Positions 18,992-32,798 of a stretch of 33,089 nt of DNA are shown piece by piece. The notes under the pieces are model-generated. The model searched no databases. It was not told the origin of the DNA and was given only the letters and a program-made list of their open reading frames with translations. The position numbers were made by a program, and so were the translations under genes. How positions within the stretch are numbered: the first letter of the stretch is position 1; each line of letters opens with the position of its first letter. Source of the stretch: Lachnospiraceae bacterium (GTDB lineage Bacteria; Bacillota; Clostridia; Lachnospirales; Lachnospiraceae); the NCBI GenBank assembly GCA_015057055.1, contig SVFE01000027.1:1-33089 (forward strand), in the 5' to 3' direction.

Positions 18992-20398
18992 ATGCTGTTT
19001 CCCAGTAACGTTTTTTTGTTTTGCTTTTTGCCGGTAATTCTGGTTCTTTATTACATTGTCGGCAGCGCAGAACAAAGCGGGAAAAAAAGAATATGGAAGA
19101 ACATGGTTTTGTTTGTGGGGAGTATCATTTTTTATGCATACGGCGAAAAATGGTACTGCCTGCTTCTTTTGATTTCTATTTTGTGGAATTGGGGCATGGG
19201 CCTTTGTATTGAGCGAACCTGTCATCAGCCTAAAAAACAAAAAATTTATCTGGTCTTGATGCTTGCAGTGAATCTGGGAATATTGTTTGCTTATAAGTAT
19301 TTGGATTTTGTGATTGCAAATCTCAACCGGTTTATGAAAACACAAATCCAGCCGGCCGGCCTTGCGCTTCCGATCGGAATTTCTTTTTTTACATTTCAAG
19401 CAATTTCCTATTGCGTGGATGTGTACCGGAAGAAAGCGGATGCACAAAAAAATCCCCTTTATGTAGGATTGTATATTGGGCTGTTTCCGCAGCTGATTGC
19501 GGGTCCGATTGTGCGTTACGAATCGATAGCATTACAAATCGAGAAGAGAAAAGAAACCTTGGACGGATTTACGGAAGGGGTGGAACGTTTTTTGGTAGGT
19601 ATTTGCAAAAAAGTTCTTTTGGCCGATATCATGGCAATTTTTGCAGACCGGATTTTTAATCAGGTGACCGCAGGAGAATCCATTGCGGTATCTATGGCAT
19701 GGCTAGGAGCAATCGCCTACACGTTGCAGATTTATTATGATTTTTCGGCGTATTCCGATATGGCAATCGGACTGGGCAAGATGTTTGGATTTTCTTTTGA
19801 AGAAAACTTTAATTACCCGTATATTTCTGCCTCCGTAACAGAATTTTGGCGACGTTGGCACATTTCCCTCAGTACCTGGTTTAGGGATTACGTGTATATC
19901 CCTTTGGGCGGAAATCGGGGCGGAAAATGGAAAACCTACCGGAATTTGTTTGTGGTATGGCTTCTTACCGGAATATGGCACGGTGCCGGATGGAATTACG
20001 TTTTGTGGGGACTGTGGTATTTTGTCTTTTTGATAATAGAGAAGCAAATGCCGGAAAAAAGGACAGGTATTTTAAAAGTGGCGGGACATGTCTACACTTT
20101 GTTTGTGGTTGTTATCGGGTGGACTTTGTTTCGGGCGCCTTCCTTGCAAATTGCGGCGACATACTTAAAAACCATGTTTGGAATCGGGGCCGAGACCGTT
20201 TTTTCCATGACAACATTGTTTTATCTGAAAGACAACTGGATGTTTTTCCTTTGTGCAATTTTGTTTTCCGTGCCCATTGCAGAAAAAATAAGAAAATACA
20301 AAGGGATCTATCAGGGACTTTTGGCATTATTGTTTTTGATCAGTCTGATTTATATTATCAAGGGAAGTTACAGCCCGTTTATTTATTTTAGTTTTTAA
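18992..20398 (+). CDS. MBOAT-family O-acyltransferase (AlgI/DltB type)
   Basis: The 468-residue multi-pass protein belongs to the membrane-bound O-acyltransferases. Signature segments are PIGISFFTFQAISYCVDVYR (about 127-146), IAGPIVRY, YDFSAYSDMAIGLGKMFG, and FWRRWHISLSTWFRDYVYIP with the conserved His290. GIWHGAGWNYVLWG holds the catalytic His330. It would carry an acyl group, usually acetyl, across the membrane for transfer to a surface polymer. The next gene encodes a DHHW/AlgX-like protein, the usual extracytoplasmic partner, so the pair likely O-acetylates the polysaccharide made by this locus. GGAG lies about 12 bases before the ATG. Confidence 0.92.
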   Translation: MLFPSNVFLFCFLPVILVLYYIVGSAEQSGKKRIWKNMVLFVGSIIFYAYGEKWYCLLLLISILWNWGMGLCIERTCHQPKKQKIYLVLMLAVNLGILFAYKYLDFVIANLNRFMKTQIQPAGLALPIGISFFTFQAISYCVDVYRKKADAQKNPLYVGLYIGLFPQLIAGPIVRYESIALQIEKRKETLDGFTEGVERFLVGICKKVLLADIMAIFADRIFNQVTAGESIAVSMAWLGAIAYTLQIYYDFSAYSDMAIGLGKMFGFSFEENFNYPYISASVTEFWRRWHISLSTWFRDYVYIPLGGNRGGKWKTYRNLFVVWLLTGIWHGAGWNYVLWGLWYFVFLIIEKQMPEKRTGILKVAGHVYTLFVVVIGWTLFRAPSLQIAATYLKTMFGIGAETVFSMTTLFYLKDNWMFFLCAILFSVPIAEKIRKYKGIYQGLLALLFLISLIYIIKGSYSPFIYFSF

Positions 20399-20425
20399 CA
20401 ATAAACTTTGTTTTGGAGAATGCTT

Positions 20426-21553
20426 GTGAAAGAAACGTGGAAAAATAAAGGAATTACAATTTTTTTTCTGTTTGTAATTGCGGTTTTTACGCTGGTAAAT
20501 TTGTATGAGTTTTTGACAAAAGCCGAAGAAAACGGACGGTTAAAAGGATTGGGTGAACTCGGAAGCATAAATGAAGCTGCCATTACGGTGTGGGGAGGCC
20601 TGCAGCGTTTTATGGGCAAGGAATTGGCATTCGGTTCTACGGTTTATGAAGATGTAACGCGGCTAAATAATGGCTATTTTATTATGGCAGATCACAGCCC
20701 GGATTACGATGCGGCGGTGCGGGGAGCACTGGGGGCGCAGGCCTTGGCGGATGAAATCGGTGCAGAATTTTTATACGTGCAGGTGCCCGGAAAACAGCGG
20801 GGGGAAGACTTGCCGGAAGGGGTGGTTTGCTATTCCGAAAGTAAACAGGAAGCGGTAACGGAGGCTCTTTTGGCAGAGGGAGTGACGGTTTTGGATATGG
20901 GCGAGGTTTTGCGCCAAAGCGGCGAAGAATGGTTTTCGTATTTTTACCATACCGACCATCATTGGAATAATGATGCTGCATTTTTGGCATATCAAAATAT
21001 CTGTGCCTATATGAGCGAGAACGGAAGTGAGATTGCCGAAGATTTGACGGATGGGCAGCAGTATCAAAGAGTTTTGTATGAAGATGTTTTTTTGGGAACC
21101 CACGGACGTATGGCAGGACCATGGTACACGGGACTGGATGATTATGAACTGTGGCTGCCGGAATTTCCTACAAGTTTTTCCTTGGAGGTAGCCTCACAAG
21201 GGATTCATTTGGAGGGGGATTTTGAAGAATGCTTTGTGCATTATGAAAATTTAGCATGCTATAGTTATGACTATTATGCCTATTACGCTTATTTGAAGGA
21301 AGATTATGATTGCTTTGAAATTGTCAATCATTTGCGGCCGGAAGGACCGAGCGCAGTAATTGTCAGGGATTCTTCGGCGGTGCCGGTATCGGTATTTCTA
21401 GCGACCCAGTGCAGTGAATTGGATATTTTGGATTTGCGCTACATGGAAGAAAATAATGCAATGGATTACATTCGTGAGAAGAATCCGGATTATATCATTT
21501 ATCTTTTTGGTACGGGGTATTTGGGAGCTGAAAACGCGATTGTAATGCAATAG
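20426..21553 (+). CDS. DHHW-family (AlgJ/AlgX-like) SGNH acyl-transfer protein
   Basis: The 375-residue protein has one N-terminal membrane anchor (about residues 9-28) and an extracytoplasmic SGNH-hydrolase-like domain. Motifs are FYHTDHHWNNDA with Asp-His-His-Trp at about 177-180 and, near the end, VIVRDSSAVPVSVFL with the probable catalytic Ser316, followed by LDLRYM. Such proteins take the acyl group exported by an MBOAT partner and place it on a sugar hydroxyl, as AlgJ/AlgX do with AlgI. The start is uncertain: GTG at 20426 has TTGGAG at the correct 7-base spacing, whereas ATG at 20420 is too close to it. This is the last gene before the pse operon promoter. Confidence 0.82.
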   Translation: MKETWKNKGITIFFLFVIAVFTLVNLYEFLTKAEENGRLKGLGELGSINEAAITVWGGLQRFMGKELAFGSTVYEDVTRLNNGYFIMADHSPDYDAAVRGALGAQALADEIGAEFLYVQVPGKQRGEDLPEGVVCYSESKQEAVTEALLAEGVTVLDMGEVLRQSGEEWFSYFYHTDHHWNNDAAFLAYQNICAYMSENGSEIAEDLTDGQQYQRVLYEDVFLGTHGRMAGPWYTGLDDYELWLPEFPTSFSLEVASQGIHLEGDFEECFVHYENLACYSYDYYAYYAYLKEDYDCFEIVNHLRPEGPSAVIVRDSSAVPVSVFLATQCSELDILDLRYMEENNAMDYIREKNPDYIIYLFGTGYLGAENAIVMQ

Positions 21554-21590: not shown

Positions 21591-21664
21591 TTCCTTTGGT
21601 TTTATCAAAGTTTTTAAGGAAAATTACGGAAATAGATGAGTAGGGAAAAGAAAGGATGGCAATT

Positions 21665-22660
21665 ATGTTAAACGACAAAACAATTCTTATCACCGGAGGT
21701 ACCGGTTCTTTTGGGAAATGCTTTACAAAGTATGTGTTGACCCATTATCAGCCGAAGAAGATTATTATTTACTCCCGAGATGAATTCAAACAGTTTATTA
21801 TGCAGAATGAATTTAAGGAATATGCGGACAAATTACGCTTTTTCATCGGGGATGTCAGAGATGCCGATCGTCTTCGCAGAGCCTTCAAAGGTGTGGATTA
21901 CGTGATTCATGCCGCAGCGCTCAAGCAGGTGCCTGCCTGCGAATACAATCCGAATGAAGCAATCAAAACCAACATACACGGTGCAATGAACATTATTGAA
22001 GCGGCTTTGGATTGCGACGTGAAAAAGGTGGTGGCGCTGTCTACGGATAAAGCGGTTAATCCCGTGAATTTATACGGAGGAACCAAACTGGTATCCGACA
22101 AATTGTTTATTGCAGCCAATGCGTATGCCGGTGCGGGAGACTTGAATTTCTCCATCGTTCGTTACGGTAATGTTGCAGGAAGCCGCGGTTCGGTGATTCC
22201 GTTTTTCCAAAACATTATTAACAGCGGCAAAAAAGAATTGCCCATTACGGATTATCGTATGACCCGTTTTTGGATTTCCCTGACACAAGGGGTAGAATTG
22301 GTAATTAAAGCATTGGAGGAAGCAAAAGGCGGAGAGACCTTTATCAGTAAAATTCCTTCCTTCAAAATTACGGATCTGGCACAGGCTATGCTTCCCGGAT
22401 GCGAAATGCCGGAAGTGGGAATCCGCGAAGGTGAAAAATTACATGAAATCATGGTTACCGTAGAGGATTCCATGACTACTTATGAATATGATAAGCATTT
22501 CATTGTGTATCCCCAGATGGTATGGAGTGAAAAAAGAATGCCGGTGCCTACCGGTAAAAAGGTTCCGGAAGGTTTTTCGTACAGTTCCGGAAATAATACG
22601 GAGTGGCTCAGTGTAGAAGAGATTCAGGAGTTGTTAAAAACACTGGATTTGGAAAAATAA
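21665..22660 (+). CDS. pseB: UDP-N-acetylglucosamine 4,6-dehydratase (inverting), pseudaminic acid step 1
   Basis: The 331-residue extended short-chain dehydrogenase converts UDP-GlcNAc to UDP-2-acetamido-2,6-dideoxy-beta-L-arabino-hexos-4-ulose. It shows TILITGGTGSFGKCF, YSRDEFKQ, FIGDVRDADRL, HAAALKQVPACEYNP, LSTDKAVNPVNLYGGTKL with the Tyr-x-x-x-Lys pair, and RYGNVAGSRGSVIPFF. These are the marks of the short soluble PseB/FlaA1 type rather than the long membrane-bound CapD type. ATG at 21665 is chosen over 21656, which is abutted by AAAGG with no spacing. It is first in the operon with pseI, pseG, pseC and pseF. Capsule CapE-like enzymes are close relatives, but the neighbours decide for PseB. 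Confidence 0.9.
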   Translation: MLNDKTILITGGTGSFGKCFTKYVLTHYQPKKIIIYSRDEFKQFIMQNEFKEYADKLRFFIGDVRDADRLRRAFKGVDYVIHAAALKQVPACEYNPNEAIKTNIHGAMNIIEAALDCDVKKVVALSTDKAVNPVNLYGGTKLVSDKLFIAANAYAGAGDLNFSIVRYGNVAGSRGSVIPFFQNIINSGKKELPITDYRMTRFWISLTQGVELVIKALEEAKGGETFISKIPSFKITDLAQAMLPGCEMPEVGIREGEKLHEIMVTVEDSMTTYEYDKHFIVYPQMVWSEKRMPVPTGKKVPEGFSYSSGNNTEWLSVEEIQELLKTLDLEK

Positions 22661-22704: not shown

Positions 22705-23760
22705 ATGACACAAACAAAGCAATTGCAAATTAAAAACAGAAGCATCGGAGATGGCAATCCGGCATATCTGATTGCGGAAATGTCGGCAAATCATGCCGGT
22801 GATATGGGACGTGCGCTTGAGATTATCCATGCAGCAAAGGAAAGCGGCGCAGACTGCATTAAGATTCAAACTTATACACCGGATACCATTACCCTGAATT
22901 GTAATAATGAGTTTTTTACATTAAGCGGCGGAACCTGGAAAGGTGAAAATCTTTATGAATTATATGGGAAAGCCTACACTCCGTGGGAGTGGCAGGGCCG
23001 GTTGAAGGAAGAGGCCGATAAAATCGGAATTGATTTCTTTTCGACTCCGTTTGATAAAACGGCAGTGGATTTTTTGGAAGAACTAAAGGTGGACTTTTAT
23101 AAGATTGCTTCTTTTGAAGTTGTGGATATTCCGCTTTTAAAAGCGGTTGCAGCGACGCAAAAACCGATTGTCATGTCGGTGGGCATGGCCACAACGGAAG
23201 AAATTGAAGAAGCGATGAAAGCGATCTATTCTCAGGGAAACACGCAGCTTGCGATATTGAAGTGCTCCAGCGTATATCCGGCAATTCCGGATACGATGAA
23301 TTTAAAAACCTTGCAGGATATGAAAGAACGTTTCGGCGTACCGGTTGGTCTGTCGGATCATTCTATGGGAAATATTGCGGCGGTTACGGCGGTTGCCTTA
23401 GGCGCCAATATTATAGAAAAGCATTTTTGCCTCAGTCGGGATATTGAAAACCCGGATGTTTCTTTTTCCATGGAACCGGAAGAATTTGCCGAGATGGTGA
23501 AAAATATCCGTCTGGCGGAAAAGGCAATGGGAAAAGTCAGTTATGAGTTGTCTGCTGCGGAAAAAGAAAGCCGAAATACGAGAAAATCTATTTTTGTGTC
23601 GGCAGACATCAAAAAAGGAGAGGTTCTTACCCCGGAAAATATTCGTGTGGTTCGGCCGGCATACGGGATGGAACCGAAATATTATGAAATGGTACTTGGC
23701 AAAAAAGTGAAAGAGGATTTGAAATTTGGTACGCCTCTTTCCTTTGATGTTATTGAATAA
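22705..23760 (+). CDS. pseI: Pseudaminic acid synthase (NeuB family)
   Basis: The 351-residue enzyme condenses phosphoenolpyruvate with 2,4-diacetamido-2,4,6-trideoxy-L-altrose to make pseudaminic acid. The NeuB TIM-barrel shows AYLIAEMSANHAGDMGRALE, GADCIKIQTYTPDT, FFSTPFDKTAVDFLEEL, KIASFEVVDIPLL, SVGMATTEEIEEA and LKCSSVYPAIPDTMNL, with VGLSDHSMGNIAAV. The last 60 residues are the SAF/antifreeze-like domain (RKSIFVSADIKKGEVLTPEN). The length fits the family. Legionaminic or sialic acid synthases are similar, but the pathway genes around it (pseB, pseG) point to pseudaminate. GGAG lies about 8 bases before the ATG. Confidence 0.92.
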   Translation: MTQTKQLQIKNRSIGDGNPAYLIAEMSANHAGDMGRALEIIHAAKESGADCIKIQTYTPDTITLNCNNEFFTLSGGTWKGENLYELYGKAYTPWEWQGRLKEEADKIGIDFFSTPFDKTAVDFLEELKVDFYKIASFEVVDIPLLKAVAATQKPIVMSVGMATTEEIEEAMKAIYSQGNTQLAILKCSSVYPAIPDTMNLKTLQDMKERFGVPVGLSDHSMGNIAAVTAVALGANIIEKHFCLSRDIENPDVSFSMEPEEFAEMVKNIRLAEKAMGKVSYELSAAEKESRNTRKSIFVSADIKKGEVLTPENIRVVRPAYGMEPKYYEMVLGKKVKEDLKFGTPLSFDVIE

Positions 23761-23772
23761 CCGGAGAACAGT

Positions 23773-24798
23773 ATGAAGCTATATATCAGGACAGAGGCCA
23801 ATAAAATCACAGCAACAGGGCATATGATGCGCTGTCTTGCCATTGCAGATGCGGCAAGAGAACTGGGCGTAGAGACTCTTTTTATTGTAGCGGAAGAGGC
23901 TTCTGCATCGTTACCGAAACAAAAGGGCTATGAAACCCTTTGTCTTGGACGTACCTGGAATGATTTTGACGGCGAAATTCCGATTATGGAGGCGCTGATA
24001 CAACAATATAATATCCAAATGCTGCTGGTTGACCATTACTATGTGTCGAAAGACTATATGGCGGCAATAGGAAAGAAAACGAAGACCGCGTACATCGATG
24101 ACCTGCATGATGGAGTTTGGCCCTGCAGCGTTATAATAAATTATGCGGTCTATTCTGATTTATTTGATTATGAAAAAGAGTATCCCGTGGCAAAGCGGTT
24201 GTTGGGATGCAACTATGCACCGCTTCGGGCAGAATATTCAGAGGCATATTCGAAAACTGTCCGGGAAAAAGTAGAGAATGTTTTGGTGGTGACCGGCGGG
24301 ACAGATGAATTTCATTTTATGAAGCAATTTTATGAAATGATTGCCGAAGCAGAAGAATGGAAGGAAATTTCCTTTTTGCTGGTATGCGGTGCTTACAACG
24401 GAGATTATGCAGAACTGGCTCAAAAGAAATCAACCTGGAACAACGTTAAAGTGTGTGATGCATTGCCCGGGTTGAAACCGGCTATGGAAAAAGCGGATTT
24501 AATTGTAACCGCAGGAGGAACGACGCTCTATGAAGTGGCGGCGATGCGGCTCCCCGGAATCTGTTTCTGTATTGCAGATAACCAGATTCGCAATGTAGAA
24601 GGTTTTGTATCCGGCGGATATTTGATTCACGGCGGAGATGTGCGTAGTGATTTTTCCATGGAAGAGCTACGAAAAAAACTTGCATATTGTGTGGATAATT
24701 TTAATGTAAGAGAAGAAATGGCAAAACGCCTGGGAAGTCTTGTGGACGGAAATGGTGCAAGGCGTATTGTGAATGCTTTATTGGAGGAGATTAAATGA
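23773..24798 (+). CDS. pseG: UDP-2,4-diacetamido-2,4,6-trideoxy-beta-L-altropyranose hydrolase
   Basis: The 341-residue GT-B-fold hydrolase removes UDP from the diacetamido-altrose intermediate to give the free sugar used by PseI. The N-terminal IRTEANKITATGHMMRCLAI contains the conserved His17 region (R-x-E/D then G-H-x-M-R-C). TAYIDDLHDG, VVTGGTDEF and VTAGGTTLYEVAAMRLPGIC complete the PseG pattern. PseG is not used in legionaminic or sialic acid synthesis, so its presence is the best marker for a pseudaminic pathway. GGAG 8 bases before the ATG supports the start. The gene overlaps pseC by four bases. Confidence 0.9.
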   Translation: MKLYIRTEANKITATGHMMRCLAIADAARELGVETLFIVAEEASASLPKQKGYETLCLGRTWNDFDGEIPIMEALIQQYNIQMLLVDHYYVSKDYMAAIGKKTKTAYIDDLHDGVWPCSVIINYAVYSDLFDYEKEYPVAKRLLGCNYAPLRAEYSEAYSKTVREKVENVLVVTGGTDEFHFMKQFYEMIAEAEEWKEISFLLVCGAYNGDYAELAQKKSTWNNVKVCDALPGLKPAMEKADLIVTAGGTTLYEVAAMRLPGICFCIADNQIRNVEGFVSGGYLIHGGDVRSDFSMEELRKKLAYCVDNFNVREEMAKRLGSLVDGNGARRIVNALLEEIK

Positions 24799-25988
24799 AT
24801 AAGCCAGCATTGTACGGGGGAACCCCGGTAAGAGAGAAAAAACTGTTTTACGGACACCAATATCTGGATGAGAAGGATATTGCTGCCGTTGTGGATGTTT
24901 TAAAAAGTGATTATTTAACTTGCGGACCGAAGATTGCAGAGGCAGAAGAAAAATTGAAAGCGATTACCGGCGCAAAGCATGCCTGTGTGGTAAACAGCGG
25001 AACTGCAGCGCTTCACATTGCATGTCAGGCATTGGGGATTGGTGCCAATGATGAGGTGATTACCACACCGATTACATTTGCCGCATCTGCCAATTGTGTT
25101 TTGTATGTCGGTGCAACACCGGTATTTGCCGATATCGACGAAAAGACTTACAATATTTCGCCGGAGAGTATCGAAGAAAGAATAACCGAAAAGACCAAAG
25201 CGGTTATTGCGGTGGACTTTACCGGCCAGGCAGTGGATTTAAAGCGTATCAGGGAAATATGTGACCGTCATCACCTGTATCTTATAGAGGATGCGGCGCA
25301 CTCCATCGGAACGTTATACGATGGCGTGCCGGTGGGAAATATAGCAGATATTACAACGTTTTCGTTTCATCCGGTAAAAACCGTTACCGCCGGAGAAGGC
25401 GGAGCGGTGATGACCAATGACCCGGAACTGGCTAAAAAAATCAGTTTGTATCGTGCCCACGGAATTACCAGAGAAGAGGACTTGTTAGAGAGGGAGTCGG
25501 AGGGCGGCTGGTATTATGAGCAGGTTGCCTTGGGAATGAATTATCGTATGACCGATATTCAGGCCGGGTTGCTTGTCAGCCAGCTGGATAAGCTTTCGCA
25601 ATTTAAACAGAGACGCAGCGAAATAGTAAAGAAATACAATGCGGCATTTTCCGGTCTGGAAGGAGTTGTGGTCCAGGAAGAAATTCCGCAATCCGATACA
25701 TGCAGACATTTGTATATTCTTCGGCTGGACACAGAAAAATTATCCTGTGACCGGAAAGAGTTTTTTGATGCAATGAATGCAGAAAATGTGTGTTGTAATG
25801 TACATTATATCCCGGTGTATTTCCATCCTTACTATGAGAAACTGGGATATAAACGGGGAATTTGTCCGAAGGCGGAGGCTCTGTATGCAAGTATGATGAG
25901 TCTTCCGTTATATTATTCCATGACGGACCGGGATGCGGACGATGTGATAGACAGTGTGAAAAAATTAGTGGCTTATTTTCGAAAATAA
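24795..25988 (+). CDS. pseC: UDP-4-amino-4,6-dideoxy-N-acetyl-beta-L-altrosamine transaminase
   Basis: The 397-residue PLP enzyme of the DegT/DnrJ/EryC1 aminotransferase family adds the 4-amino group to the PseB product. It shows LTCGPKIAEAEEKL, VVNSGTAALHIACQAL, ITFAASANCVLYVGATPVF, LIEDAAHSIGTLYDG and TTFSFHPVKTVTAGEGG with the PLP-binding Lys195. AHGITREEDL and EQVALGMNYRMTDIQAGL follow, as in PseC homologues. The ATG overlaps the end of pseG (ATGA), with GGAGGAG at 24782-24788, so translation is coupled. It acts on the UDP-sugar in the cytoplasm before the PseH-type acetylation. Confidence 0.9.
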   Translation: MNKPALYGGTPVREKKLFYGHQYLDEKDIAAVVDVLKSDYLTCGPKIAEAEEKLKAITGAKHACVVNSGTAALHIACQALGIGANDEVITTPITFAASANCVLYVGATPVFADIDEKTYNISPESIEERITEKTKAVIAVDFTGQAVDLKRIREICDRHHLYLIEDAAHSIGTLYDGVPVGNIADITTFSFHPVKTVTAGEGGAVMTNDPELAKKISLYRAHGITREEDLLERESEGGWYYEQVALGMNYRMTDIQAGLLVSQLDKLSQFKQRRSEIVKKYNAAFSGLEGVVVQEEIPQSDTCRHLYILRLDTEKLSCDRKEFFDAMNAENVCCNVHYIPVYFHPYYEKLGYKRGICPKAEALYASMMSLPLYYSMTDRDADDVIDSVKKLVAYFRK

Positions 25989-26009
25989 GACAAGGAAATG
26001 GAGCATGGC

Positions 26010-27041
26010 GTGCAGTTATCTGTAATTGTGCCTGTTTATAACATGGCAGCAGAGGGAAAACTAAATCATTGTATGGATTCTCTTTTGGCGCAGACGGTGA
26101 AAGAGTATGAAATTATCGCTGTGGACGATGCTTCTACGGATCATTCACTTGCCGTTCTTCGGGAGTATGAAGCCCGGTTTCCGGACAAGGTCAAAGTGGT
26201 GGCCAGCCCGGAGAATCAACGTCAGGGCGGAGCCAAAAACCGCGGGTTGGAAGCAGCTACCGGAAAGTGGATTGGCTTTATCGACTCCGATGATTGGATT
26301 ACTCCGGATTATTATGAAAAACTAATCAAAAAAGCAGAGGAAACGGGAGCGGATTTTTGCGGTTGTGATTATTCTCTGGTTTCGGAATATACCATGATTC
26401 CCGGAAAAGTGATTGTCAACAATACGGCGGAGCAAACCGGAGTCCTGGATAAAGAAAAACATGGCAGACATCTCCTGAAATCCGGGAGTATGGTGGTAAA
26501 AATTTATTTGCACCAGCGAATAAAAGAGCACCATTTGCGTTTCCCGGAAAAGATTTTCTATGAGGATAATTGTGCAGCACCTTTGTGGTCGCTTTATTTC
26601 ACTCATTTCGAGAGAGTGGAGGAGCCGATGTATTACTATTTGACATTGCCGGAATCCACGACCCATCATGTCACATGGGCCAAGTGTGAAGATCGTATGG
26701 AAGCGGCCAGGCTTTTTTTGGAAGAAAGCAAAAAGCGCGGATTTTATGAAGAATATCGTGAAGAAATCGAGTATCGATTTACGGAACTTTACTATGCAAC
26801 AACCTTGTTTTCCTATATGTACAGCGGGAAAAACAGAAAGATGAAGTATACCGAAATTTTGAAAAAAAACATTTTGCAATATGTTCCGGATTTTCGTAAC
26901 AATCCCTATTACGAAAAATGTATGCCGGAGGAAGACAAGAAACTGATTGCCTTGCAAATGAAGTCCAATGCTCTATTTTTTGGGTATTATGTGTTGTTGT
27001 TCGGATATCGGAATTTGCGGAAACGGAAAGGTAGAAAATGA
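26010..27041 (+). CDS. Family 2 glycosyltransferase inside the pse operon
   Basis: The 343-residue GT2 protein starts QLSVIVPVYNMA and has IIAVDDASTDHSL, GGAKNRGLEAATGKWIGFID with the D-x-D in DSDDWITPDYY. A C-terminal part rich in aromatic residues (LYYATTLFSYMYSG) follows. It sits between pseC and pseF and overlaps pseF by four bases. The placement suggests it uses, or acts next to, the pseudaminic acid residue, but family 2 enzymes with CMP-nonulosonate donors are unusual, so this is only a possibility. A GTG start at 26010 has GGAG at a 6-base spacing; the ATG at 25998 has AAGG only two bases away and seems poorer. Confidence 0.82.
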   Translation: MQLSVIVPVYNMAAEGKLNHCMDSLLAQTVKEYEIIAVDDASTDHSLAVLREYEARFPDKVKVVASPENQRQGGAKNRGLEAATGKWIGFIDSDDWITPDYYEKLIKKAEETGADFCGCDYSLVSEYTMIPGKVIVNNTAEQTGVLDKEKHGRHLLKSGSMVVKIYLHQRIKEHHLRFPEKIFYEDNCAAPLWSLYFTHFERVEEPMYYYLTLPESTTHHVTWAKCEDRMEAARLFLEESKKRGFYEEYREEIEYRFTELYYATTLFSYMYSGKNRKMKYTEILKKNILQYVPDFRNNPYYEKCMPEEDKKLIALQMKSNALFFGYYVLLFGYRNLRKRKGRK

Positions 27042-27733
27042 TGAATGCATTGGCAATTATAACGGCCAGAGGCGGAAGTAAGCGGATTCCGCGAAAAAAT
27101 GTGAAGCTATTTTTAGGAAAACCGATTATTGAGTATTCCATCGAAGCGGCATTGCAAAGCGGGATATTTGCCGAAGTGATGGTATCTACGGATGATAAGG
27201 AAATTGCTGAGATTGCAAAAAAAGCAGGTGCTGAGGTTCCTTTTTTCAGAAGTCCTGAAACGTCCAATGATTTTGCCACCACCGCGGATGTGATTTTGGA
27301 GGTTCTTCAAATGTATCGGGAACGGGGACAGGAATTTGATGCGGTTTGCTGCATTTATCCCACCGCCCCCTTTGTGACTGGAGATGCAATAAAAACGGCA
27401 ATGGAAACATTGGAAAGAGAGAAGGCCGATACAGTGCTGCCCGTAGTGCGCTTTTCTTTTCCGCCGCAGCGATGTGTTATGGTAAAGGATGGATATTTGA
27501 CGGCAAAGTGGCCGGAATATATGCCGATGCGTTCCCAGGATTTAGAACCACTTTACCATGATTGCGGTCAGTTTTATTGTTTAAATACAGCGCAGTTTTT
27601 ACAACAAAAAACCATTGTTATGGAAAAATGCGTTCCCTATTATCAAAATGAGATGAATGTACAGGATATAGATACCCAGGAAGATTGGGAAATGGCGGAA
27701 TTGAAATACCGCAGAATGCACCCGGGGAAATAG
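27038..27733 (+). CDS. pseF: Pseudaminic acid cytidylyltransferase
   Basis: The 231-residue enzyme activates pseudaminic acid with CTP to CMP-pseudaminate, the donor for glycosylation. It belongs to the CMP-NeuAc synthetase family: ITARGGSKRIPRKNVKLFLG is the CTP-binding loop, followed by KPIIEYSIEAAL, VSTDDKEIAEIAKKAGAEV, CCIYPTAPFVTGDAI, and near the end VQDIDTQEDWEMAELKY. The length (about 230) is right for PseF. The start overlaps the stop of the preceding transferase gene; two adjacent ATGs (27038 and 27041) are both possible. With pseB, C, G, I and the pseH-like domain in the next gene it completes the pathway. Confidence 0.9.
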   Translation: MMNALAIITARGGSKRIPRKNVKLFLGKPIIEYSIEAALQSGIFAEVMVSTDDKEIAEIAKKAGAEVPFFRSPETSNDFATTADVILEVLQMYRERGQEFDAVCCIYPTAPFVTGDAIKTAMETLEREKADTVLPVVRFSFPPQRCVMVKDGYLTAKWPEYMPMRSQDLEPLYHDCGQFYCLNTAQFLQQKTIVMEKCVPYYQNEMNVQDIDTQEDWEMAELKYRRMHPGK

Positions 27734-27740
27734 GTAGTTT

Positions 27741-29771
27741 ATGAAATTATACTTGAGAAAAGCAGAGGCAACCGATAAGAAAATTGTTTTCCGATTGGCG
27801 AATGATAAAGAGACCAGACGGAATTCTTTTTGCGTGGATGAAATTCCCTGGGAGGATCATACGGTTTGGTATGATAAATTAATGGAATCTGAGGAGGCAA
27901 TGCTATGGCTTTGCATGGATTTCATGAAGGTGGTTGGTCAGGTAAGAGTGCAAAAATTGGCATCAGATGTGGGTGAAATCAGTTATAGCATTGACGCAGA
28001 TGCCAGAGGGCTTGGCTACGGAAAGCAGATGCTTCTTCTGCTGGAGGACGAAATCCGAAGCGAACAGAAAAAACTCGGGAATGATAATGCATACTGGTTG
28101 GTGGCAAAGGTAAAAGAGGAAAACGTGGCCTCCTGTCATATTTTTGAAACTCTGGGTTACGAAAAAATTTCCGCCGGTGAAAACAAGGCGGATGGTGTTG
28201 CCGAGTATCGGAAAGAAATTCTGAAAACGAAGGAATCCCTGGAGGGAGTAACGACTTCCGGAAAAAATAAAAACGGTGAAGAACGTCATATAGAATTGGA
28301 TATTCTCCGTGTACTTTCCATGGGAATGGTTGTAATGCTCCATTATCTCAGCAAAGGAAATCTTTTGCAGGATTTGTCGCAGGATACGTCCTTTAGTAAC
28401 TTGGCTTTTTGGCTTGCGGAATCGGCTTGTCTTGTCTGTGTGAATGTATATGTATTGCTCAGCGGATATTTTATGGTTGAGAAGAAGTTCCGTTTGGGAA
28501 AAGCCGTGGGAATCTGGTGCCAGGTGCTTTTTTACAGTGTTGTCGTATTTTTGGTTTGCGCATTTACCGGTGTTGTTGAATGGAAGAACTATTTGGACTT
28601 TTATCAGCTGCAGTTCTTTGCATTTCCCGCGGTGAACGGCCATTATTGGTTTGCAACCGCATATTTGCTGATGTACGTTTTTTCACCGGTGTTGACATCG
28701 GCTGTCCGGAATATGAAAAAAGAAAACCTGCGGAATGTCATTCTTATTCTTTTGATTTGTTTTTCGTTGATTAAATCAGTTTTGCCGGTGGAATTGCCGG
28801 TGGATGATTTCGGAAACAGTTTCGTTTGGTTTCTTATATTGTATTTGGTGGCCGCATACATTCGGTTATACGGATTGCCATTTCTTTCTGAAAAAAGGCA
28901 AAGTATCCTATGTTATGGTCTTTCCGTAGCGGGTATTTTTCTGGCCTTCCTTGCTTATGCGGTATTTCATAAGCAAACCGGTGCCTATGAATATGCAATG
29001 ACTATACCGGCTGCCTACAATTTTGTTTTTGTTCTAACCGGTGCAGTGGGGCTGTTTTGTTTCTTTTGTCAGAGTCATTTTCCGCGGAATCGGTTTACAT
29101 TGTATTTAGCACGAATTGCGCCTTATATGTTTGGTGTGTATTTGCTTCACGAACATCTTTTGCTCCGCTACGAATGGCCTGAGTGGCTGGGGGTTTCAAA
29201 AGAATACGGCGGTCTTCGGATTTTGCATATGCTTCTTTGTGTAATTCTCATTATGGGAATCGGCGTGCTTGTGGATTTCCTTCGTAGCCTTTTGTTTATG
29301 GCGATTGAGAAGCTGATGATTGTTTGTTTGAAATTGTACTATTCCAAGCGGGAAGTGTTTGATTATTTGATTTTTGGCGCATGTACCACTGTCTTTAACT
29401 GGATTGCGTACATCGCTTGTGCCTATTTGTTTTTAGTGCCCCTGTGGGATGCCAAAACCACGGAGAATGTCATGGTGGCAAGCGTCATTGCGTGGATCTT
29501 ATCGGTGATTTTTGCTTATGTGACAAACCGAATGTTTGTATTTCACAGTACGGTGACGGAGAAAAAGGCGGTATTAAAAGAGTTTTTCTCTTTTGTCAGC
29601 GCGAGAATCTTTTCTTTTCTGATGGAACTTCTGCTTATGTATGTCATGGTTGACCGACTGCAAATCAATGATTTGATTTCAAAATTTGTGATTGGTTTTG
29701 TGGTAATTGCGCTAAATTATATTTTCAGTAAATTATGGATTTTCAAAGAAAAGAAAAAGGAAATTGCTTAA
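27741..29771 (+). CDS. PseH-like GNAT / acyltransferase-3 / GtrA triple-domain fusion
   Basis: The 676-residue protein joins three domains in one uninterrupted frame. Residues 1-160 are a GNAT acetyltransferase (LYLRKAEATDKK, RGLGYGKQMLLLL acetyl-CoA loop at 89-101, CHIFETLGYE), of the PseH type that N-acetylates the 4-amino group of the PseC product. A charged linker (161-182) leads to an acyltransferase-3 domain (about 183-525) starting ELDILRVLSMGMVVMLHY with the key His201, a ten-helix acetyl exporter/O-acetyltransferase. Residues 540-670 are a GtrA-like four-helix domain (FDYLIFGACTTVFNWIAYIA, AYVTNRMFVF). No separate pseH exists in the window, so the N-terminal domain probably fills that role. 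It is 8 bases after pseF. Confidence 0.85.
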   Translation: MKLYLRKAEATDKKIVFRLANDKETRRNSFCVDEIPWEDHTVWYDKLMESEEAMLWLCMDFMKVVGQVRVQKLASDVGEISYSIDADARGLGYGKQMLLLLEDEIRSEQKKLGNDNAYWLVAKVKEENVASCHIFETLGYEKISAGENKADGVAEYRKEILKTKESLEGVTTSGKNKNGEERHIELDILRVLSMGMVVMLHYLSKGNLLQDLSQDTSFSNLAFWLAESACLVCVNVYVLLSGYFMVEKKFRLGKAVGIWCQVLFYSVVVFLVCAFTGVVEWKNYLDFYQLQFFAFPAVNGHYWFATAYLLMYVFSPVLTSAVRNMKKENLRNVILILLICFSLIKSVLPVELPVDDFGNSFVWFLILYLVAAYIRLYGLPFLSEKRQSILCYGLSVAGIFLAFLAYAVFHKQTGAYEYAMTIPAAYNFVFVLTGAVGLFCFFCQSHFPRNRFTLYLARIAPYMFGVYLLHEHLLLRYEWPEWLGVSKEYGGLRILHMLLCVILIMGIGVLVDFLRSLLFMAIEKLMIVCLKLYYSKREVFDYLIFGACTTVFNWIAYIACAYLFLVPLWDAKTTENVMVASVIAWILSVIFAYVTNRMFVFHSTVTEKKAVLKEFFSFVSARIFSFLMELLLMYVMVDRLQINDLISKFVIGFVVIALNYIFSKLWIFKEKKKEIA

Positions 29772-29792: not shown

Positions 29793-30611
29793 ATGAAGGA
29801 TAAAAAGAACAGAATCATACAGATTGCAGCGGGAATTTGCTTATTAATAATTCTTCCGGCTGTGTTGCTTTGGAAGAACGCTCCAAGAAACGCGTATGAT
29901 ATTATTTTTCTGGGCGATAGCATTTTTGGGAACGTGCAGGATGCAACCTCTGTTCCGGCTTTGGTGGGAGCATCGCTGGAGATGTCCTCTTTTAATGGTG
30001 GTTTGGGCGGAACAACGGCGAGTTGCCTTCCGGAAAATGCAAGGGAAGATGTGATTGCCAATTCGGCATCGCTGTTCTATCTGGCAAGAGCATTTTCGGA
30101 AAATAATTTTTCTGTAATTTTGTCTGCGCAACCGGTCCACGACGAAGGAAATGTCTGGTACTTTGAAGATACCGTAGAGGCTATGCGGTATGTGGATGGC
30201 AGCAAAGCAAGGTATATTATTATCGAACACGGACTGAATGATTATTTTTATGGCAGAGAAATCGGGACCATAGAGGATACTACCCCGGTGACTTTTCTTG
30301 GGGCACTGCGTCGCAGTATTGAAATGCTTCGCGATGCGTTCCCGGAAGCAGAGATTGTTTTGGTTACTCCGGTGTATTATGAAAATGAAGAGCGGATTGC
30401 GACGACGGGAGCTTCCATTGCGGAATATGTTTGGGCGGAGGTTTCTTTGGCAGAAGATATGAATGTTTTGTGCTATAATGCTTATGAAGAAAACTTTATT
30501 ACAGCGGAGAATGTTGATGCTTTGACGGAAGACGGAGTGCATTTGACAGAAGAGGGACGCTGTGTGTTGGCAAACGGAATTGTGGAATTTTTGACGGAGG
30601 ATAAAAGATGA
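29793..30611 (+). CDS. Membrane-anchored SGNH/GDSL hydrolase
   Basis: The 272-residue protein has a basic N-terminus and one membrane helix (about 8-27), then an extracytoplasmic SGNH esterase domain. Block I is IIFLGDSIFG with nucleophile Ser43, block II NGGLGGTT (68-75), block III EHGLND with Asn149, and block V DGVHLTEEG with Asp247 and His250, so all catalytic residues are present. It could remove or transfer O-acetyl groups on the polymer. Its position directly after the acyltransferase-3 protein is notable, because in OafA-type enzymes these two domains are fused. AAGGGA before the ATG fits; it overlaps the next gene by four bases. Confidence 0.87.
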   Translation: MKDKKNRIIQIAAGICLLIILPAVLLWKNAPRNAYDIIFLGDSIFGNVQDATSVPALVGASLEMSSFNGGLGGTTASCLPENAREDVIANSASLFYLARAFSENNFSVILSAQPVHDEGNVWYFEDTVEAMRYVDGSKARYIIIEHGLNDYFYGREIGTIEDTTPVTFLGALRRSIEMLRDAFPEAEIVLVTPVYYENEERIATTGASIAEYVWAEVSLAEDMNVLCYNAYEENFITAENVDALTEDGVHLTEEGRCVLANGIVEFLTEDKR

Positions 30612-31051
30612 AAAAACTATTTGCACAGTTAATGAAATTTGGCGTGGTGGGAGCGACTTGCTTTGTGATTGATTTTGCCATTACAGTAGGCCTTAAAGCT
30701 CTTGGTGTCCATTATCTCATTGCAGCTTTTTGGGGATTTGTAATTTCGGTGACGGTGAATTATCTTCTCAGTTTTCGATTTGTTTTCGAGCGGAAAGAGG
30801 ATCTGAGCAGAAGAAAAGAATTTATCATTTTCGTTGCCCTCAGTATTGCTGGTCTTGGAATTAACGAAGTGCTGATGTATGTGTGTGTGGATCTCGTGTA
30901 TGTAAAAAATGCGTTTTTACAGTCGCTTCTAACCGAGAATCTGGCGGTGGCTGCAGCAAAAATTGTGGCAACGGCAGTGGTTATGGTATACAATTTTGTG
31001 ACAAGAAAGATTTTTCTGGAAAAGAAGGAGAGCAAAATTGAAGAAGGATAG
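30608..31051 (+). CDS. GtrA-family membrane protein
   Basis: The 147-residue protein has four membrane helices and the GtrA signature: LMKFGVVGATCFVIDFAITV at the start, and NYLLSFRFVFERKEDLS between helices two and three. GtrA-like proteins are thought to flip undecaprenyl-phosphate-linked sugars to the outside for GT-C or other outer-face glycosyltransferases. It overlaps the stop of the SGNH gene (ATGA) and the start of the next membrane protein, so the three are translationally coupled. It is a second GtrA unit beside the one fused to the acyltransferase; the two are only distantly similar. Confidence 0.88.
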   Translation: MKKLFAQLMKFGVVGATCFVIDFAITVGLKALGVHYLIAAFWGFVISVTVNYLLSFRFVFERKEDLSRRKEFIIFVALSIAGLGINEVLMYVCVDLVYVKNAFLQSLLTENLAVAAAKIVATAVVMVYNFVTRKIFLEKKESKIEEG

Positions 31052-32798
31052 ATGGATTTGGGGTATTTTGAATTTCCTGTTTCCGCTTTGTCTGCTTTCC
31101 TTTGCGTTGATTGGTGTAAATCAGGGAGCAGATCTTACGGATACTACGTATAGTATGGGAAATTATATGTATTTTGATTCCATGGATGGCAGTTGGAAGT
31201 ATGCCACCTTTCTGGCAAATTTACTGGGCTCCCGGCTAATTCTTATCACCGGCGGTTCTTTTCTGTGGATGAATGTGATTTCAAAACTTCTGGTAGGGCT
31301 GATTGCCGTTATTTGCTATTTTTGTATGAAGCAATATGTTTCGCCCTATCTTGTCTTTGCGGGAGAAATTATCGCATTGGGACTCTGCTGGTGCCCCACT
31401 GTTATTTTTTATAATTATTTATCCTATTTATTTTTTGCTGTAGCGGCCTTGTTATTGATAAAGGCTTGCCGGGAAGAGAACTCGTCTTTCCTTTTTCTTG
31501 CAGGCTGTTTTTTAGGAATCAACGTCATGGTTCGTATTCCGAATGTATTGCAGGTCCTTATGATTCTTGTGGTATGGTATCATGTCGTAAAAAGTGACAA
31601 AGGACCGAAATTAAAACTTTTTTTTCAAAAGACCGGGGTTTGTATCGCCGGATTTGCAGCCGGGTTTTTGATTACGGTCGTGATTATGATTTTGTCCGGT
31701 GGCGGTGGCGGCTTTTCCGCTATGGTGGAATGGCTTATGTCCATGCTGATTTCAGGAAGTGATTCCGGTGGATATTCGGCCGGCGCAATGCTGGGCAATA
31801 TTATGGAAGATTATGCTTTGAACCTAAAATGGACGTTTATTATAGTTGCGGGAATGGCCCTTGGCTGTTTTCTCTTTCGGAAATGGAACGAAAAATATCT
31901 TTGGGTGGCCAAAGCAGGATATATTTGTTGGCTTGCCGTTATGGTTGTATATTTTTACCGCAATTGGGTATTTCGGCTGGATTACGGTAATTATTCCGCT
32001 ATTTTTAATCTCAGCGTTATTTTTATTATGTTGGGAAGTGTCCTTGCGGTATGGCAGTTGACGGTTAACCGTAAAGAAGAACGTGAATCGGAATTGGCGA
32101 TATTATTGCTTGTGATTTTTGCGATTTCTCCCCTTGGAAGCAACAACCATTTGTATTCCAGCATTAATAACTTTTTTGTTGCTGCGCCTATTGTAATCCA
32201 TTTGATGAAAAAGATGGCGGACAAATACCGGGAGAAAAGAGAAGGGTTCCCGATTCGTTGGATGATGAGGACCTTTGTTCTGCTTTTGGGCGCGCAGAGT
32301 TTTTTCTTTCATTTGGAATATGTATTTCGCGGTCCTGCGGTATCGGAATACAGGAACTATTGTCTGCAGGAAGCCAACGTTATGAACGGCATGCGGACCA
32401 ATGAAGCACACGGAAAAGCCATGGAAGAATTATGCTCTTTTATGAAAGAGAGTAAATCGGATAGGATTGTTTTGTACGGTGAAATTCCTGGGGTAAGTTA
32501 TTTGTTGGGACAGGAATGCGCTGTTTCAACCTCATGGCCGGATTTGGCGAGTTTTTCCCTGGAAGATTGGGAAGATGATTTACGTAGTGTCGGGGACTGG
32601 AATGAGGTAAGTATTATTGTTTCCCCGGATATTATCATGTGGTTTGGAGCAGAGGAAATAACAGAAGAAGAATTGCCCTCGTTTATGGCGGAAGATTCCG
32701 GAATGGAAAAGGTGCAGGCCCTATATGAGGTAATACAGGGAGAAGGATTTACGGTAGTATTTGAAAATGAAGAATTTGTAGTATATCAGACGGAGTAG
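31038..32798 (+). CDS. Large multi-pass membrane protein, GT-C-like glycosyltransferase candidate
   Basis: The 586-residue product has about ten to eleven membrane helices in the first 430 residues. An N-terminal exposed loop GADLTDTTYSMGNYMYF has acidic residues placed as in GT-C membrane glycosyltransferases. A soluble C-terminal domain of about 150 residues (RIVLYGEIPGVSYLLG) follows. Family identity is not certain. The start is TTG at 31038, 14 bases inside the GtrA gene and with GGAG (31027-31030) at a good spacing; no closer ATG makes sense. Coupling to GtrA suggests that GtrA supplies the lipid-linked sugar and this protein transfers it outside the membrane. That role is inference. Confidence 0.65.
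   Translation: MKKDRWIWGILNFLFPLCLLSFALIGVNQGADLTDTTYSMGNYMYFDSMDGSWKYATFLANLLGSRLILITGGSFLWMNVISKLLVGLIAVICYFCMKQYVSPYLVFAGEIIALGLCWCPTVIFYNYLSYLFFAVAALLLIKACREENSSFLFLAGCFLGINVMVRIPNVLQVLMILVVWYHVVKSDKGPKLKLFFQKTGVCIAGFAAGFLITVVIMILSGGGGGFSAMVEWLMSMLISGSDSGGYSAGAMLGNIMEDYALNLKWTFIIVAGMALGCFLFRKWNEKYLWVAKAGYICWLAVMVVYFYRNWVFRLDYGNYSAIFNLSVIFIMLGSVLAVWQLTVNRKEERESELAILLLVIFAISPLGSNNHLYSSINNFFVAAPIVIHLMKKMADKYREKREGFPIRWMMRTFVLLLGAQSFFFHLEYVFRGPAVSEYRNYCLQEANVMNGMRTNEAHGKAMEELCSFMKESKSDRIVLYGEIPGVSYLLGQECAVSTSWPDLASFSLEDWEDDLRSVGDWNEVSIIVSPDIIMWFGAEEITEEELPSFMAEDSGMEKVQALYEVIQGEGFTVVFENEEFVVYQTE

Follow-up and report, generated by a model that had tools for sequence, protein, structure and literature searches.

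Why should a gene at the end of a pseudaminic acid operon encode an acetyltransferase and two membrane domains in one frame? The question is raised by contig SVFE01000027.1 of a Lachnospiraceae genome (GenBank assembly GCA_015057055.1), which we analysed over its whole stretch of 33,089 nucleotides, referred to below as the window. The gene begins 7 bases after the end of pseF, and PseB, PseI, PseG, PseC and PseF encoded upstream all pass their NCBIfam equivalog cut-offs. Its product combines a GNAT-type acetyltransferase domain, an acyltransferase-3 (AT3) domain and a GtrA-type domain. The explanation that we favour, with moderate confidence, is that three neighbouring genes were fused at the border of two sugar modules, i.e. 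a PseH-type GNAT, an O-acetylating AT3 and a lipid-sugar GtrA.

The three-domain frame and its recurrence

The initial annotation had placed the three domains in this order in one frame, and both the order and the coordinates hold. In a Pfam scan the 676-residue protein shows PF13302 (GNAT) at residues 3-140 (E 9e-11), PF01757 (AT3) at residues 185-510 (E 8e-27; 94.5 bits, gathering cut-off 31) and PF04138 (GtrA) at residues 542-668 (E 1e-19; 71.1 bits, gathering cut-off 26.1), all above their gathering scores, and the AT3 and GtrA assignments are secure. The full-length AlphaFold2 model, based on a 20-row alignment, has a mean predicted local distance difference test score (pLDDT) of 85.0 and consists of a GNAT domain and a helical membrane part, with a linker of low confidence; the GNAT domain modelled alone reaches 92.8. 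By our own reading of the model the AT3 part has about 10 membrane helices, an unbroken helix (490-535) leads from it into the GtrA domain, and the GtrA helices span residues 537-564, 574-600, 608-639 and 644-675. The first AT3 helix carries R190-x10-H201, which we take to be the AT3 motif, and both residues are invariant in alignments of 12 and 20 rows. When the GNAT domain is placed in the cytosol, the membrane loops, delimited by helix boundaries set by eye, hold 12 lysine and arginine residues inside versus 4 outside, which fits a cytosolic orientation of the GNAT. In PDB, a phmmer search with the AT3-GtrA part yielded nothing better than weak matches to cholinesterases, and a Foldseek search with the full-length model returned GNAT matches throughout the best 50 rows.

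The three-domain architecture is real and conserved. AT3 and GtrA are found in one frame in 34 of the 35 genomes of the genus, the window's own included (genomes and loci of the survey are labelled G and L), and the exception, G009, which is 72% complete, has no match. In a search with a GNAT profile (A2), 20 of the 34 genomes show an intact fused GNAT (173-212 bits) and 2 an interrupted one (at an undetermined base in G008, by an insert in G028); in 7 more it is degenerate (72-89 bits), and 5 have none. Among the matches listed, the named fusion carriers are mostly Lachnospiraceae, and many are metagenome-assembled genomes from ruminants. Outside the genus no listed match joins GNAT to AT3, or AT3 to most of GtrA, in evenly drawn samples of 397 family, 391 class and 398 phylum genomes, searched at E-value limits (1e-30 for the family, 1e-20 for class and phylum) that more divergent fusions would escape. 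In sum, an intact three-domain fusion is present in 20 of the 35 genus genomes and in none listed outside it. A few AT3 or GtrA matches outside the genus sit in longer frames with other partners, for example with the large membrane protein that we call MP31038 (AT3-MP31038 in G304). In one locus (L064 9411-11543) the fused GNAT is lengthened by an insert of some 50 residues in which the peptide HSERSEQS recurs; a repeat element may have inserted here and be translated in frame.

The architecture is apparently undescribed. No enzyme with this domain order was known to the initial annotation, and a literature search by titles and abstract openings, with subscription journals mostly outside its reach, found no paper on a GNAT-AT3-GtrA protein. 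The AT3 O-acyltransferases with or without an SGNH domain (OafA, OafB, OatA, Oac; PF01757) share with our protein about ten membrane helices, the R-x10-H motif in the first of them and, here as a gene directly downstream, an SGNH-type partner; they differ in that the partners here are an N-terminal GNAT and a C-terminal GtrA. According to the accessible portions of two articles the commonest AT3 domain fusion is AT3-SGNH (PMC9558356, PMC7448272). The former, an AT3 review, names SGNH and alanine racemase fusions, and in its main text neither GNAT nor GtrA occurs (PMC9558356). Three-component extracytoplasmic glycosylation systems consist of GtrA, GtrB and a GT-C protein, as outlined in an extract of PMC11127046. 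Our locus resembles them in the 4-helix domain (PF04138) and in encoding a GT2 protein with a C-terminal hydrophobic part as well as GT-C-like membrane proteins, both recognised by eye. It differs in the union of GtrA with an acyltransferase, in the presence of a second GtrA as a protein of its own and in its sugar, which is a predicted one.

A probable border between two sugar modules

Outside the genus the AT3 orthologues are proteins of about 350-400 residues. We compared their surroundings in 36 loci, drawn from 27 of 46 family genomes outside the genus, the order genomes G120 and G125, and 7 of 79 loci listed, none of these 7 AT3s being a copy of another (G113, locus L079, was left out). 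With gene labels taken, as in the other fetched loci, from BLAST matches to proteins of the window or of the loci, and with thresholds of our own for these counts, an MP31038-type protein is nearby in 29 loci, WecE in 26, a WecD-like GNAT in 22, pse genes in 21 and GtrA in 11. AT3 keeps company with WecE, the WecD-like GNAT and large membrane proteins irrespective of the presence of pse genes, GtrA does so less regularly, and in many genera AT3 is situated between the pse genes and MP31038-WecE. Judged by gene neighbourhood, then, the three-domain gene appears to combine a gene that in other genomes belongs to the pse block with others that belong to a second module, and it is plausible that AT3 and GtrA are parts of this second, extracytoplasmic decoration module. 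Since AT3, and less often GtrA, accompany the downstream cassette, the protein seems to link two adjacent modules and not three steps of a single pathway. In this respect we depart from the initial annotation: its domain calls, its PseH assignment and the novelty of the domain order are supported, but its view that the parts act at three stages of a single pathway is not supported in that form.

In the favoured explanation the AT3 domain would move acetyl groups from cytosolic acetyl-CoA through the membrane and O-acetylate a glycan outside, perhaps with the help of the SGNH protein encoded next door, a possible acetyl-transfer partner. The GtrA domain would help to carry an undecaprenyl-phosphate-linked sugar to the outside for a GT-C-type transferase, and its cargo would most likely be Fuc4NAc from the downstream WecE/WecD-like enzymes. 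These activities and substrates, like any benefit of the physical link, are what we infer from the families and their neighbours. However, just 11 of the 36 loci have a GtrA gene near the separate AT3. The connection of GtrA to the Fuc4NAc cassette is therefore weak, which counts against the explanation.

We give nearly even chances to a further reading, in which gene adjacency alone produced the fusion, the domains act independently of one another and joining them serves no purpose. It is compatible with our preferred explanation, for which a functional link is not required. The position of AT3 between the two modules in many genera speaks for it, as do the fusions of other neighbours (GNAT with PseG, PseC, PseI or a formyltransferase, described below; AT3 with an MP31038-type large membrane protein in L135 7795-10638 and L179 1906-4803) and the persistence of AT3-GtrA without a GNAT in 5 of the 34 genomes. 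On the other hand, the three-domain order is kept through most of the genus, and the fusion is under purifying selection, GNAT and membrane part alike. For 12 selected pairs of intact fusions the GNAT part has a ratio of non-synonymous to synonymous substitution rates (dN/dS, Nei-Gojobori) of 0.025-0.255; the membrane part, for which 11 of the 12 pairs allowed a calculation, has 0.069-0.173. Some dS values are high. Moreover, in six species (L065-L070) AT3-GtrA is headed by a shortened GNAT missing its catalytic second half, and even these remnants have dN/dS values of 0.118-0.138 (3 computable of 5 pairs).

The data allow for coupling between the domains but can be explained without it. A coupling of PseH to GtrA and AT3 is in any case not obligatory, as 12 of the 34 genomes with the fusion protein have a degenerate GNAT or none. 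A strong standalone GNAT of the same clade is present in 4 of these 12 genomes (G003, G026, G034, G016) and in none of the 22 with an intact or interrupted fused GNAT (Fisher p 0.011, not corrected for kinship; 3 of the 4 standalone genes are close kin). We considered that in these four genomes the GNAT had split off from the fusion. However, in the tree the standalone GNATs fall outside the fusion clade and their 18-kb loci showed no pse gene, so that replacement is likelier than splitting.

A more ambitious version, which we regard as rather unlikely, sees the protein as a membrane-anchored assembly point: it would bring PseH, and by way of PseH the soluble Pse enzymes, next to an O-acetyltransferase and a lipid-sugar carrier, and would thereby coordinate sugar synthesis in the cytosol, the supply of acetyl groups and decoration on the outside. 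The GNAT remnant of the six species would then be non-catalytic and still serve the membrane part. If a conserved remnant does so, the link itself would have a function. Were the link to the AT3-GtrA part functional, nonulosonate synthesis would be held at the membrane beside glycan export and O-acetylation.

Identity of the N-terminal acetyltransferase

The N-terminal domain is very probably PseH, as the initial annotation had proposed. Gene context argues for this, as do fusions to PseC, PseG and PseI and the tree, whereas the score of the curated hidden Markov model does not. In the family sample the GNAT profile found matches in 27 of 397 genomes, 24 of them outside the genus, and in 20 of these 24 pse genes lie no more than about 9.5 kb away. 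The exceptions are G064, G298, G224 and G236, the last on a 3.4-kb contig where an AT3 gene directly follows the GNAT gene. WecE is near 4 of the 24 and AT3 near 5. Firstly, then, the relatives are found mostly in pse operons. Secondly, a GNAT of this kind is fused to PseG (L135 6246-7820, L248 7980-9545 and L250 3965-5479, in genomes G304, G441 and G295; PseG parts 157.6, 183.3 and 154.9 bits, cut-off 153.55), to PseC (L246 9063-10691, genome G235; 511.5 bits, cut-off 423.5) and, in another class of the phylum, to PseI (L262 7672-9198, G958; 471.1 bits, cut-off 340.25). In the pathway PseH acts on the product of PseC, and PseG acts on the product of PseH; the fusions to PseC and PseG point to PseH because these two enzymes flank its step. 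Thirdly, in a tree of 76 GNATs the 17 fused GNATs form one clade (97/81) among the pse-operon GNATs, although the bootstrap is not fully settled. This tree holds 17 of the 20 intact fusions, the near-copies L043, L048 and L052 and the interrupted and degenerate ones being left out; L261 and L262 are also absent.

Similar fusions occur with other partners. A formyltransferase-like domain is fused to, or encoded beside, the same GNAT in L079 9086-10914, L150 10418-12292, L261 8727-9824, L241 7538-9459 and L262 6295-9198, the fused cases being in G113, G488 and G1143. A gene for a PIG-L-type deacetylase, recognised by eye, is adjacent in 4 of these 5 loci (not in L261). These loci suggest N-formylated pseudaminic acid, which would be made by deacetylation followed by formylation. 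The fusions elsewhere in Bacillota (PseG in L135, L248 and L250; PseC in L246; PseI in L262; formyltransferase in L079, L150 and L261) thus share the kind of N-terminal GNAT with our protein, but their partners are soluble enzymes of nonulosonate synthesis or modification and not membrane domains. In a 2026 study of Clostridium pseudaminic acid, PseH is recognised by its N-acetyltransferase domain, and the words 'fused' and 'fusion' are absent from the main text (PMC13317340).

Compared with PseH of Helicobacter pylori and Campylobacter jejuni (TIGR03585), the domain shares the GNAT fold and the place beside PseB, PseC, PseG, PseI and PseF; it differs in its model score, in a Phe where, by spacing, Tyr138 would be expected and in being fused to membrane domains. 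PDB holds chains named PseH (4ri1 and 4xpk/4xpl), presumably from these two species, and in a search of PDB with the GNAT profile 4xpk ranked 6th of 155 matches (E 1.9e-9). N21, R26, F30, H40, W43, G66, R69, Y82, R89, N128 and S131 are among the columns invariant in A2 (21 rows, the window included). R26 and H40-x-x-W43 may correspond to Arg30, His49 and Phe52 of PseH as given in an extract of PMC4363471, matched by motif and spacing only.

Several observations weigh against this identification. The fused GNAT scores 32.0 bits with TIGR03585 and so misses the curated equivalog cut-off of 93.1, although all 14 relatives scanned from pse operons miss it too (28.6-52.7 bits) and no protein of the 35 genus genomes passes it. 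Among solved structures the nearest is that of MJ1062, an uncharacterised protein of the archaeon Methanocaldococcus, and polyamine acetyltransferases follow closely. The best 50 fold matches in PDB are acetyltransferases or MJ1062, and a PseH entry is not among them. At Asn+7, where H. pylori PseH has Tyr138, its proposed general acid according to the same extract (PMC4363471), our protein has Phe135 if the two are matched by spacing alone, and Phe is found at this position in 40 of 42 readable rows (of 46). The distribution of PseC is no help either: a GNAT of this clade, be it fused, interrupted or standalone, occurs in 16 of 19 genomes with PseC above its cut-off and in 10 of 16 without. 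There is no clear association, and we rejected a strict phylogenetic coupling of the two. In G013, G033 and G009 PseC is present and no GNAT of the clade scores above the range of the WecD-like ones, and in G002, G007 and G028 the fetched locus has a GNAT-bearing fusion and lacks PseI, PseG and PseC, although that of G007 has PseB and that of G028 PseB and PseF. PseI is above its cut-off in 33 of the 35 genus genomes and PseC in just 19, so other aminotransferases or other nonulosonates may be involved. If the identification is nevertheless right, it offers the missing PseH for those Lachnospiraceae whose pse-operon GNATs fail the curated model.

A competing candidate for PseH is found in the same genome. 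A second GNAT scores 76 bits with the PseH model, compared to 36 bits for the fused one, and is encoded on contig C29, which is taken, by synteny with G005, to continue the window's contig. The gene order there is a truncated DegT-type aminotransferase, a protein of about 570 residues, the GNAT and a GT2 protein. One might thus argue that the second GNAT is the real PseH and that the fused one N-acetylates the second sugar, dTDP-Fuc4N, the more so as AT3 genes accompany the WecE cassette; we consider this improbable. In the sister genome G014 the aminotransferase at the equivalent place scores 653 bits with the dTDP-4-amino-4,6-dideoxygalactose transaminase model (cut-off 375) and 652 bits with the WecE model (cut-off 434.85). 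Members of the second GNAT's family are encoded beside WecE in loci that showed no pse gene (L123, L124, L127, L134, L138), and in the tree the 30 WecD-like GNATs split from the other 46 with 100/100 support. The fused GNAT does not group with these WecE-adjacent GNATs; its clade, as described above, is found near pse genes in 20 of 24 genomes and near WecE in 4, and is fused to PseC, PseG and PseI. Because of the WecE-type context and the separate clade we assign the second GNAT to dTDP-Fuc4NAc synthesis and reject it as the true PseH. The downstream cassette probably makes dTDP-Fuc4NAc, to judge from these enzyme families. Consequently the outcome that, according to the initial annotation, would have spoken against its view, a grouping with unrelated GNATs together with another pseH in the genome, was not observed. 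Among the membrane proteins read by eye as GT-C-like, the 598-residue protein of L050 has no Pfam match, and its 572-residue counterpart in the window's genome has a sub-threshold match to DUF6056.

It could also be imagined that the GNAT is a regulator or an acetyl-CoA-binding helper of AT3 and not a sugar acetyltransferase. Both families use acetyl-CoA, and remnants without the catalytic second half are conserved in six species. However, intact GNATs have many invariant positions, and most relatives outside the genus are in pse operons, such an AT3 being seen near just 5 of the 24, so that we give this idea little credence. Finally, although the window's genome is a draft of 104 contigs, an assembly or sequencing artefact that joins neighbouring genes, the objection foreseen in the initial annotation, is ruled out for practical purposes, as the frame is continuous in many separate assemblies, including, among the matches listed, intact fusions on contigs of 120-500 kb in NC2008, XPB1003 and NK4A179, whose records are not labelled as metagenome-assembled and which we take to be cultured strains.

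Neighbouring genes in the window

The features of the locus are collected in the table. The label 'GT-C-like', like 'GtrB-like' and 'PIG-L-type' elsewhere in the survey, was given by eye, and MP31038 has no Pfam match at E 0.01.

Table. Features of the three-domain gene and its surroundings in the window
Feature	Position	Strand	Basis
pseB	21656..22660	+	TIGR03589, 539.8 bits (cut-off 407.75)
pseI	22705..23760	+	TIGR03586, 474.0 bits (cut-off 340.25)
pseG	23773..24798	+	TIGR03590, 174.1 bits (cut-off 153.55)
pseC	24795..25988	+	TIGR03588, 474.6 bits (cut-off 423.5)
GT2 glycosyltransferase within the pse block	25998..27041	+	PF00535
pseF	27038..27733	+	TIGR03584, 290.5 bits (cut-off 205.7)
Three-domain protein, probable PseH-type GNAT - AT3 - GtrA, 676 aa	27741..29771	+	single open frame, ATG start
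N-terminal GNAT domain, probably PseH-type, aa 1-160	27741..28220	+	PF13302, A2 profile, domain model, tree
Linker, aa 161-183	28221..28289	+	pLDDT <50 at 165-179
AT3 domain, aa 184-520	28290..29300	+	PF01757; helices from model
GtrA-type domain, aa 537-676, 4 helices	29349..29768	+	PF04138; model
GDSL/SGNH-type esterase	29793..30611	+	PF13472; N-terminal hydrophobic stretch by eye
Second, separate GtrA protein	30608..31051	+	PF04138
Large membrane protein MP31038, GT-C-like by eye	31038..32798	+	neighbourhood; frequent neighbour of the AT3 gene

Upstream of the pse genes (18992-21553) the window encodes an MBOAT-type, DltB-like protein (146.6 bits, cut-off 375) followed by an AlgX/SGNH-like protein, and this pair may represent a second O-acetylation system in the same locus. 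In 11 loci of the genus (L044, L046-L050, L053, L057, L061-L063) an ATP-grasp-like protein and a family of proteins of 209-284 residues are encoded upstream of the fusion; the one member of this family that was scanned has no Pfam match. Fusions are also seen for PseF, which is part of an open reading frame of 631-642 residues with a second domain in L089 (6592-8487) and L153 (from 14894); in L089 this second domain resembles, by eye, a pyridoxal phosphate-dependent amino acid decarboxylase, and an ATP-grasp-like protein is encoded alongside.

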